Origin: Bacillota bacterium | Lineage (GTDB): Bacteria > Bacillota > Dethiobacteria > Dethiobacterales > Dethiobacteraceae | Direction: 5' to 3' | DNA length: 40,933 nt | Assembly: GCA_012522075.1 (NCBI GenBank) | Contig: JAAYLG010000140.1 | Coordinates: 1 to 40,933 of the forward strand | Shown: positions 25,895-30,080 of the stretch, piece by piece | Layout of the letters: the number at the start of each line of letters is the position of its first letter | Position numbering within the stretch: position 1 is the stretch's first letter | The notes under the pieces: model-generated | The model's input: the letters and a program-made list of their open reading frames with translations, nothing else | Database searches by the model: none | Told to the model about the DNA's origin: nothing | Made by a program: the position numbers and the translations under genes

Positions 25895-25946
25895 CGGTCT
25901 GGGGCGGGTATTCTTGCCCCGGAGCGAGCGGTGCGGGGGTGACGGA

Positions 25947-26984
25947 GTGAAGGAAGAGTTAATTTTAGGCATAGAAACATCATGCGATGAAACGGCGGCA
26001 GCCGTGGTGGCCGGCGGGCGGCAGGTCAAAAGCAATATTATAGCTTCACAGGTGGATATCCACCGCAAATTTGGCGGTGTGGTACCGGAAATTGCTTCAC
26101 GGAAACATCTTGAGCTGATCAACCTGGTGATTGAGGAAGCGCTGCTGGCGGCAGGCTGCACTTTGGCTGATCTTGCCTGTATTGCCGTGACACAGGGCCC
26201 CGGTCTGGTGGGTGCCCTGCTGGTGGGGGTGAACACGGCCAAGACTTTGGCTTACGCTGCAGAAAAACCGCTGGTAGCCGTCAATCATGTGCTGGCACAT
26301 GTGGCCGCCAATTATCTGGTGCACGAAGTGGAATTCCCTGCTGTTTGCCTGGTTGTCTCGGGAGGCCATACCAGTTTGCTCTACATTGAGGCACGGGATA
26401 AGGTGGAATTGCTGGCGTCCACCCGCGATGATGCTGCAGGGGAGGCATTTGATAAAATAGCCCGGGTGCTGGGTCTGGGCTATCCCGGGGGACCGGCCAT
26501 TGAGCTTGCCGCCCGGGAAGGTGATATACATGCTTTTACCTTCCCCAAGGCTTTCAGCGGCCAGGATGATGTCTTGGCATTTTCTTTTTCCGGTTTAAAG
26601 TCTGCGGTGATCAACACTGTGCATAATATAATACAAAAAGGGCAGAAACTGCCTGTTGCCGACGTGGCTGCCGGTTTTCAGCAGGCTGTGATTGATATCC
26701 TGGTGGAAAAAACCTGCCTGGCGGCAAAGATTAAAGGGACAAAAACTGTACTTTTGGCAGGCGGTGTTGCCGCCAACCAAATGCTGCGGGCGCGGCTGGC
26801 TGCAGCGCTGGCGGCGGAGGGCCGCAACCTCCTCTTCCCGCCACTTTCGCTTTGTACCGACAATGCGGCCATGGTGGCGGCAGCCGGCTGGGACAGTTAC
26901 CGCAAGCAACAATTCGCAGGACTCGACTTAAACGCAGATCCTGTTTTAGACATGATGCGCCACTTAACGCAACTGCCCGGATGA
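25947..26984 (+). CDS. tsaD: tRNA threonylcarbamoyladenosine biosynthesis protein TsaD
   Basis: LGIETSCDETAAAVV, HRKFGGVVPEIASRKHLE, NHVLAHVAA, SGGHTSLLYI, LAGGVAANQMLR. Confidence 0.96.
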   Translation: MKEELILGIETSCDETAAAVVAGGRQVKSNIIASQVDIHRKFGGVVPEIASRKHLELINLVIEEALLAAGCTLADLACIAVTQGPGLVGALLVGVNTAKTLAYAAEKPLVAVNHVLAHVAANYLVHEVEFPAVCLVVSGGHTSLLYIEARDKVELLASTRDDAAGEAFDKIARVLGLGYPGGPAIELAAREGDIHAFTFPKAFSGQDDVLAFSFSGLKSAVINTVHNIIQKGQKLPVADVAAGFQQAVIDILVEKTCLAAKIKGTKTVLLAGGVAANQMLRARLAAALAAEGRNLLFPPLSLCTDNAAMVAAAGWDSYRKQQFAGLDLNADPVLDMMRHLTQLPG

Positions 26985-27015
26985 ACAAAAAGAGTTACTA
27001 GTTATGGTAACAACC

Positions 27016-27096
27016 TGTGGATAATGTGGATACTTTGTTAAAATACATTGATAATGGGGTTATTTCTGTGGATAACTATGTGGATACTGTGGATTA
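27016..27096 (+). promoter_or_regulatory. cluster of five DnaA-box-like 9-mers
   Basis: TGTGGATAA 27016-27024, TGTGGATAC 27025-27033, TGTGGATAA 27067-27075, TGTGGATAC 27079-27087, TGTGGATTA 27088-27096; TGTGGATAA is the complement of consensus TTATCCACA. Confidence 0.85.
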
Positions 27097-27172
27097 GTGC
27101 CACTGCCGGCTGCTAAAAATATGAACAAAATGTTGCAAATTCAGGAGTAGCCGGCTTTGTGGAACTTAACAT

Positions 27173-27205: not shown

Positions 27206-27376
27206 CGACGGCGTAAAAAACCACAATTGTAACAGAAAACGACAGGATACTTTGACGAACTAAACTCCTCCGCCAGCTTTTCAGCGGGAAAACCTCTGAT
27301 GCTGCAGCTCCGGCGCAGATGCCTGCTTGTCGCCTGTCAAGCGGGGCTGACAGAAAAAAGAAAAGAGGGATGTTTT

Positions 27377-28759
27377 TTGCTTAACCGGATCAAACATCTT
27401 CACTTTATAGGTATTGGCGGCTACGGGATGAGCGCGCTGGCTCAGGTGCTCCTTGACATGGGATACATAGTGACCGGTTCTGACATCAAGCAAAGCGCCA
27501 TTACGGAAAAATTAAAAAAACTGGGGGCAACTGTATTTACCGGTCATGATGCGGCACATATTGCCGGGGCGGAACTTGTAGTTTACTCAACTGCCATCCC
27601 GCCTGATAATGTTGAATTGCAGGCCGCCAAAAAAAGCGGCATACCTGTATGGCACCGCTCGGAACTTTTGGCCCGTTTTATTAACGATCGTTTTGGCATT
27701 GCCGTGGCGGGAGCGCACGGCAAGACAACAACCACTTCCATGATTGCCACGGTGCTGACGGCGGGGGGGCTGGACCCCACCGCTTTCATTGGCGGTGTGC
27801 TGGCTGAATTCGGCGGTAATGCCCGCATCGGCAAATCGGATATTGTCATTGCCGAAGCGGATGAAAGCGACAACACTTTTCTCCGCTACCGCCCCCGGAT
27901 GGCCGTTATTACCAATGTAGAGGCGGATCACCTGGAGCATTATAAGGGTAATTTCCAGCTGCTTTTGGCTGCGTACAGAGAATTTTTAGGCAATACTGCT
28001 CCCGACGGTATTGCTGTCCTGAATGCGGAGGACCGGTATTTGCAGAATATGCATCCCTCGCATTTAAAAAAAATTGTTACCTTCGGGCTCACAAAAGGCG
28101 ACTGGCGTGCCGCCAATATAGAGTATGCAGGCTGGGGCAGCCGTTTTCAAGTTATAGGGCCGAAAGGTCCTGTGGGGCAGATTACGCTGTCAGTCCCAGG
28201 GCTGCATAATGTCCTTAATGCTTTGGCGGCGGTGGCGGTAGCCGGAGAGTTTGGGGTGGCTTTTCCCCGGATCCAGACAAGCCTGGCAAACTTTCGCGGT
28301 GCGGAGCGTCGCTTCCAGTTCTTATACAAAGGCAACGGTATTGCCGTGGTAGACGATTATGCCCATCACCCCACAGAAATACGTGCAACCTTGCAGGCTG
28401 CCCGTACCGACGGGATAGAAAGGGTGCTGGTTGTTTTTCAGCCGCACCGCTTCAGCCGAACAAAGTGGTTCCTGGAAGAATTCGCCCGGTCTTTGTATGA
28501 TGCAGATCAGGTTATTTTACATCGGATATATGCCGCCAGTGAACTGCCGCTGGCAGGGGTGTCGTCCCGTGAACTGGCGGAAAAGATGCGCGCCCACGGA
28601 GTTAATGTCACCCAGCTGGATGAAGCGGAAGAGATTGTTGCCTATGTGTTGTCAATTGCCCGTCCAGGGGACCTGATTATTACCATGGGTGCCGGGGATA
28701 TTACGGAAATCGGCCACCGCCTGGCGGTAAAATTGCGGGAGAAAGAGCATGTCCATTGA
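27377..28759 (+). CDS. murC: UDP-N-acetylmuramate--L-alanine ligase
   Basis: LHFIGIGGYGMSALAQVLLDMGYIVTGSDI, VAGAHGKTTTTSMIA, VVDDYAHHPTEI, QPHRFSRT; TTG start after gaggga. Confidence 0.96.
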   Translation: MLNRIKHLHFIGIGGYGMSALAQVLLDMGYIVTGSDIKQSAITEKLKKLGATVFTGHDAAHIAGAELVVYSTAIPPDNVELQAAKKSGIPVWHRSELLARFINDRFGIAVAGAHGKTTTTSMIATVLTAGGLDPTAFIGGVLAEFGGNARIGKSDIVIAEADESDNTFLRYRPRMAVITNVEADHLEHYKGNFQLLLAAYREFLGNTAPDGIAVLNAEDRYLQNMHPSHLKKIVTFGLTKGDWRAANIEYAGWGSRFQVIGPKGPVGQITLSVPGLHNVLNALAAVAVAGEFGVAFPRIQTSLANFRGAERRFQFLYKGNGIAVVDDYAHHPTEIRATLQAARTDGIERVLVVFQPHRFSRTKWFLEEFARSLYDADQVILHRIYAASELPLAGVSSRELAEKMRAHGVNVTQLDEAEEIVAYVLSIARPGDLIITMGAGDITEIGHRLAVKLREKEHVH

Positions 28760-30080
28760 TTACTACACTTACCTGGTGGAAGCCGCACGGAAAAACATCC
28801 TGCCGCTTACTTCCTACTGCAATGTCAGGTGCGTTTTTTGCAGCCATAAGCAAAACCCGGATGGGGTACTGATCCACAGGCTGCCTTCGCTTCCCGTGGC
28901 CAAAGTTGAAGAATTGGTGCAGCTTTTGGATCCGCGGGAAAAAGTTGTTATAGGCGAGTCGGCCACACGCCTGGTTGAAGGGGAACCCTTTACCCACCCG
29001 GAAATTATGCCAATTTTAAAGCTTATCCGCACCAAGATGCCGCAAACAACTATTGCCATCACCACCAATGCCATCTTATTGACGCCAAGGCTGGCGGCGC
29101 AATTGGCACAGCTTTTGCCGCTGGAAATAACAGTCTCCCTCAACAGCGTCACGGCGGCCGGGCGGCGTCTGCTGATGCAGGACACCGAAGAAAGTCGTGC
29201 ACCCCGGGCGGTGGCAGCCCTTGCTCGCAGCGGTATTCCTTTTCACGGCAGCCTGGTGGCCATGCCCCACCTTGCAGGCTGGCGGGACATGGAGGAAACA
29301 GTCCGATTTCTCGCCGAGCACGGCGCCCTGACAATCCGCCTTTTTCTGCCCGGCTATACGGCAAAAACACCGCCCGAAATAAAGTTTCCGCTGTCTTTAT
29401 GGACGGAAGTCGTTGCTTTTGCCCGGGAAGGGACAAAAAGGTACGGCTTGCCTGTTATTCCTGAACCCTGCGTGCCGCAAGACCTGACGCCAAAGATCTG
29501 GGGTGTAATGGCCAAAACGCCGGCACAGGAGGCCGGCCTGCAGCCGGGGGATGTAATTACGGAAGTGGACGGCAAAACAGTGTCCACACGCGTAGAAGCC
29601 TTTTGGGCCGCCAAGAGGGCGAAAAAACCCACCATTGCTTATGCCCGCCAGGGGCGACTCTATCACACCAGACTAAAAAAAGCGGCCCTGGAGCCGCCGG
29701 GTTTTGTTATGCTTTATGATTTTCACCCGCGGCGGGTGGCCGCTATCGAGAGGGCAATCAGGCTGCGGCAGGCGGAGAGGCCGCTGGTTTTGGCTTCAGC
29801 TTTTGGCGCACAACTTGTCAGGCAGGTAGCGAACAAGTTTGCCCTTCCTGCATTGACTGTTTGTAAGGTGGATAATAACTTTTTTGGCGGTTCAATTCAG
29901 GCCGCCGGGCTGCTGACTGTGCAGGATTTTCTGACTGCGGCACGGAAGGCATTGGCAGGGCGTCGCCATGACTTGCTGCTTGTACCGCAGGATGCTTTTG
30001 ACGGGCACGGTTTAGACCTGACGGGGCGGCGTGCGGACGTGCTGACGCAGGAACTGTCAGTGGCCTGTGAAGTTGTCTGA
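28749..30080 (+). CDS. radical SAM protein with internal PDZ domain and DUF512-like C-terminus
   Basis: CNVRCVFC (CX3CX2C), SPLTITTNA-like core (TTIAITTNAILLT), PDZ segment (VMAKTPAQEAGLQPGDVITEVDGKTV), C-terminal VDNNFFGGSIQAAGLLTVQDFL. Confidence 0.8.
   Translation: MSIDYYTYLVEAARKNILPLTSYCNVRCVFCSHKQNPDGVLIHRLPSLPVAKVEELVQLLDPREKVVIGESATRLVEGEPFTHPEIMPILKLIRTKMPQTTIAITTNAILLTPRLAAQLAQLLPLEITVSLNSVTAAGRRLLMQDTEESRAPRAVAALARSGIPFHGSLVAMPHLAGWRDMEETVRFLAEHGALTIRLFLPGYTAKTPPEIKFPLSLWTEVVAFAREGTKRYGLPVIPEPCVPQDLTPKIWGVMAKTPAQEAGLQPGDVITEVDGKTVSTRVEAFWAAKRAKKPTIAYARQGRLYHTRLKKAALEPPGFVMLYDFHPRRVAAIERAIRLRQAERPLVLASAFGAQLVRQVANKFALPALTVCKVDNNFFGGSIQAAGLLTVQDFLTAARKALAGRRHDLLLVPQDAFDGHGLDLTGRRADVLTQELSVACEVV

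Follow-up and report, generated by a model that had tools for sequence, protein, structure and literature searches.

The locus described here raises the question of why a row of DnaA boxes stands directly behind tsaD, away from dnaA, and whether it is an accident, an interchangeable sink for the initiator or a dedicated site of replication control. The window (the whole stretch of DNA that was analysed, 40,933 nucleotides from a bacterium of the Dethiobacteraceae) has the following features around the cluster:

25914..26984, plus strand: tsaD (gcp/ygjD), the anchor gene of the cluster; TIGR03723 match at 418.5 bits, above the curated cut-off
27002..27011, plus strand: flank motif TTATGGTAAC (TTATG[TG]TAAC-like), conserved in the window's class
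27016..27024, minus strand: DnaA box 1, plus strand TGTGGATAA, minus strand TTATCCACA; perfect consensus
27025..27033, minus strand: DnaA box 2, plus strand TGTGGATAC, minus strand GTATCCACA; one mismatch, abuts box 1
27034..27066, no strand: spacer of 33 bp, 24% GC, setting a distance of 42 bp between boxes 2 and 3
27067..27075, minus strand: DnaA box 3, plus strand TGTGGATAA, minus strand TTATCCACA; perfect consensus
27079..27087, minus strand: DnaA box 4, plus strand TGTGGATAC, minus strand GTATCCACA; one mismatch
27088..27096, minus strand: DnaA box 5, plus strand TGTGGATTA, minus strand TAATCCACA; one mismatch, abuts box 4
27105..27155, plus strand: hairpin after the cluster, folding z = -3.5, found at same-genus loci only
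27299..28759, plus strand: murC, the downstream gene in the window lineage; Mur_ligase N, M and C Pfam matches

All five boxes are TGTGGAT-type on the plus strand, that is, DnaA boxes on the minus strand, with starts at 0, 9, 51, 63 and 72 relative to box 1 (spacing 9-42-12-9), and together they occupy 81 bp of intergenic DNA, 32-112 bp past the tsaD stop codon. On re-reading, the positions that the first-pass annotation had given for the five same-strand 9-mers were all correct, as were the two pairs without a gap (27016/27025 and 27079/27088) and the AT-rich 33-bp gap between the groups; its count of two perfect boxes also stands, but the other three carry exactly one mismatch each, not one or two. 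The DnaA of the window organism itself has the canonical GGRDHTTV recognition motif. Being clustered, intergenic and away from oriC, these boxes belong to a known kind, the oriC-external cluster (DBC) of the Bacillus subtilis type.

A chance origin of the cluster was ruled out by simulation and by a genome-wide scan for box pairs. First-order Markov simulation of 6 Mb produced zero cases of three same-strand boxes within 72 bp, with the same outcome for whole-window and for local AT-rich composition. Moreover, when the organism's own 2.07-Mb genome was scanned with sequence patterns, same-strand TGTGGAT pairs no more than 32 bp apart were found three times in this cluster, once beside dnaA and nowhere else. 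The earlier view that the locus is not a classical oriC is supported, since a chromosomal origin is expected at dnaA/dnaN, with an unwinding element, and dnaA lies outside the window: it is on contig C106, flanked by boxes to its left and right in a bipartite oriC. Across 23 complete or near-complete genomes, tsaD lies at 0.09-0.36 of the chromosome from dnaA and never near the terminus, a range that could simply mirror the usual location of conserved genes.

Comparison of the tsaD 3' region among relatives confirmed that the boxes are kept. In 27 of 30 class-level loci (29 relatives and the window's own), with TsaD identity down to about 55%, the cluster directly follows tsaD with its order preserved and its spacing nearly invariant; the remaining three loci are L017, whose contig runs out ~100 bp past the stop codon of tsaD, L028, in which the cluster was not recovered, and L030, which has it in reduced form. 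Between relatives the boxes persist while spacer and flanking sequence diverge, and the length of the spacer is nearly fixed.

Two neighbouring features have a narrower distribution. The flank motif stands shortly before box 1 in most class-level relatives (profile TTATGgtA.C) and is sometimes repeated after box 5 in the window's class, and it was not seen in phylum-wide or Bacillales profiles; it is possibly a weak inverted DnaA site or the site of another protein. The hairpin that had been noted 3' of the boxes has its arms where described (27105-27114 / 27146-27155; 9/10 complementary plus one G-U) and folds well. As part of the conserved element it was rejected, being absent from most class-level relatives, and it probably marks the 3' end of the tsaD transcript. 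A scan for intrinsic terminators returned none under the rules it applied.

The suggestion of a positionally conserved locus holds across the phylum, in the relatives, in a gene-blind scan, in a sample of 145 genomes and in Bacillales. The gene-blind scan used the 3' half of the element as a DNA pattern on one genome per GTDB species and returned 115 stretches, of which the 80 readable ones were then searched with the window's TsaD. In 58 of these 80, tsaD lay 54-641 bp upstream, and the element was on the tsaD strand in all 58; one further readable match (L090) had only murC, on a cut-off contig. The gene that follows the element varies among these matches (murC, a radical-SAM/DUF512 gene and others), and the cluster therefore keeps its place and polarity independently of its downstream neighbour. 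Five Lachnospiraceae loci (L046, L065, L072, L086 and L088) have the 3' half of the element behind a long gene (about 500-890 aa) in place of tsaD; the gene downstream is usually a conserved one of ~440-500 aa. Besides, in the window a protein with Radical SAM, PDZ and DUF512 domains (28749-30077) adjoins murC, and genes related to it follow tsaD and the cluster in other lineages where murC was not detected at that place.

For the phylum sample, 145 genomes were drawn evenly and the stretch from -40 to +700 around the tsaD stop was scored. It held 458 boxes on the tsaD strand and 45 on the opposite strand (about 9% of boxes), against 26 in the reversed control, the counts not being independent because the sampled genomes are related. 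At least one tsaD-strand box was present in 107 of the 145 genomes, at least two in 96, at least three in 89 and at least five in 50, whereas 49 genomes (about a third) had fewer than two and thus no recognisable cluster right after tsaD. The enrichment is local: among 137 genomes with enough sequence, the proximal 740 bp held 437 boxes on the tsaD strand and 39 opposite, and the next 740 bp held 32 and 14. Genome-wide, 170 genomes yielded 149 abutting pairs, 60 of which (40%) lay no more than 1 kb after tsaD, an interval estimated at ~0.04% of the scanned sequence; all 60 were on the tsaD strand, and only two of the 149 were near dnaA. In the single complete genome with tsaD on the lagging strand (G095), the polarity follows tsaD rather than the fork.

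Abutting pairs were also seen elsewhere. In G080, G183 and G065 the pair is found 2-3 kb downstream of tsaD, as would result from insertion of a gene in the interval. A second recurrent box locus, in or near the region of the comF operon and hpf (S30AE), accounted for about half of 20 sampled non-tsaD abutting pairs (L328-L347), with fliS/fliT close by in some genomes; at hpf in the window's own genome there was no DnaA-box cluster.

The part of the element that persists most widely is a core of two abutting boxes with a third 42-44 bp further on, found in Dethiobacteria, Clostridia and Bacillales whichever gene comes next. With up to 2 mismatches allowed in its 21 core bases, the third box stood at 42 bp in 23 of the 145 phylum loci, at 43 bp in 27 and at 44 bp in 20, whereas distances of 36-41 or 46-49 bp each occurred in only 0-2 loci. 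Since 42 bp corresponds to four turns of B-DNA, the two box groups would lie on one face of the helix. Among Bacillales, 22 of 29 loci had 4-10 tsaD-strand boxes; a convergent ABC-F (ydiF-like) neighbour was present at 16, and at 15 of these the cluster lay between both 3' ends; these loci share the tsaD-strand polarity of the window, and several have the same 9-42-12 run. They differ in that Bacillales often carry an extra box 22 bp upstream, whereas the window's class shows the TTATG motif and, 9 bp past the core, one more box.

The first-pass suggestion of a B. subtilis cluster at gcp proved right. Binding region 4 of that organism, described as "downstream of gcp; downstream of ydiF", contains 10 sites (Table 1, PMC4447404) and is among its strongest DnaA-binding regions; the apparent Kd in vitro is 0.15 uM for ATP-DnaA versus 0.33 for ADP-DnaA, and at 55 nM the ATP form is preferred 16-fold (PMC4447404). 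The two loci share many DnaA boxes at the 3' end of gcp, which is tsaD, and the window's position is thus orthologous to that of a known DBC, a link that rests on the published position and on the Bacillales with the same ydiF-like neighbour. The window differs in having a co-directional murC next instead of a convergent ydiF, and five boxes instead of about ten. Deletion of all six external clusters leads to early initiation in B. subtilis (PMC5295017, PMC13220808).

Taken together, these observations make it probable that the window's boxes are a copy of an ancestral, phylum-wide cluster at the tsaD 3' end, positionally orthologous to that of gcp/ydiF, where an ordered ATP-DnaA complex restrains initiation by sequestration. 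DnaA would most likely occupy the abutting high-affinity pair first and then fill the boxes four helical turns away, all in one direction; the resulting ordered complex would prefer ATP-DnaA and withdraw it from oriC, and duplication of the cluster as the fork passes would restrain premature initiation. Position, polarity, spacing, conservation and independence of the downstream gene are observed directly in the genomes; DnaA binding, cooperativity across the 33-bp gap and an effect on initiation are what we infer for the window organism. Withdrawal of ATP-DnaA accounts for the B. subtilis phenotype; that geometry and polarity are conserved points, in addition, to an ordered assembly of DnaA.

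The alternative that survives best is simple titration, in which any high-affinity boxes would suffice and the fixed order would be inherited but not required. It agrees with the position of the other B. subtilis clusters at different genes (PMC4447404) and with the redundancy of the six, one of which alone partly restores timing (PMC5295017). Against it, the spacings of 9 and 42-44 bp and the polarity persist between classes in which spacer sequence and box number have diverged. Pure titration needs neither fixed geometry nor polarity, so their conservation suggests something beyond sequestration; this weighs against the preferred reading too, as do the sampled genomes, about a third, that lack a recognisable cluster right after tsaD. 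We regard titration alone as a serious but rather unlikely account.

The same geometry bears on a switch of nucleotide state, as at the E. coli sites datA, which promotes ATP-DnaA hydrolysis and needs IHF, and DARS, which promotes ADP release. DARS1 and DARS2 resemble the window in having oriC-external boxes in a defined arrangement, but the DARS core has boxes in both orientations and all five of the window's point one way; in this the cluster departs from the DARS type. Likewise, datA is oriC-external with five boxes (PMC5295017), although it has another gene context, in another phylum, and works with IHF. That an ordered DnaA complex at the tsaD 3' end acts as such a switch would fit its rigid geometry and the strong ATP-form preference at gcp/ydiF, and a 2026 review leaves open whether any regulators interconvert the nucleotide forms of DnaA in B. 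subtilis (PMC13220808); on the other hand, neither sequence nor position relates the cluster to datA or DARS, and B. subtilis has neither datA nor the IHF that datA requires (PMC13220808). We consider this reading doubtful. Only slightly firmer, and offered tentatively, is the broader proposal that in Bacillota the tsaD-3' cluster, its position inherited from the phylum ancestor, serves as a dedicated DnaA-ATP control element dependent on geometry, a functional counterpart of datA or DARS and not one interchangeable sink among several.

DnaA-dependent control of murC or tsaD transcription, which the first-pass annotation had also raised, is improbable and finds no support as the conserved role. 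DnaA does regulate transcription in certain parts of the chromosome (PMC4447404), and two promoter-like matches were found against 0.7 +/- 0.9 expected, one of them weak and overlapping box 2 (27027-27055). However, the cluster follows tsaD instead of preceding it, and it accompanies tsaD whichever gene comes next; in many Bacillales that neighbour is a convergent ABC-F gene, which puts the cluster between the two 3' ends, a position that calls for no promoter. An RNA element in the tsaD 3' UTR would account for the strand bias, which tracks tsaD even in G095, but it is very improbable given that what is conserved matches the DnaA consensus exactly, that the orthologous B. subtilis region binds DnaA (PMC4447404), that about one box in eleven is opposite and that an Rfam search of the region gave no match. 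A secondary or former replication origin is scarcely credible, for although several boxes adjoin the AT-rich spacer, this is short and not conserved in sequence, origin genes are absent nearby and oriC is at dnaA.

Returning to the ordered, sequestering ATP-DnaA complex as the preferred reading, the cluster is probably an old control site for the timing of chromosome copying, because most sampled Bacillota have this row at the corresponding place, often with identical spacing. What is new here is the depth of positional and geometric conservation across the phylum; no published description of a phylum-wide tsaD cluster was found in the open-licence papers, which give partial coverage. The six external clusters of B. 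subtilis are usually regarded as redundant sinks, and the return of the gcp/tsaD one behind a single gene in most sampled Bacillota, with a common polarity and core spacing, points to strong selection for location as well as geometry. Whether these bacteria have a DnaA switch like datA or DARS thereby becomes a testable question, and in uncultured Bacillota the 3' end of tsaD offers a simple guide to one of the main external sites for DnaA.
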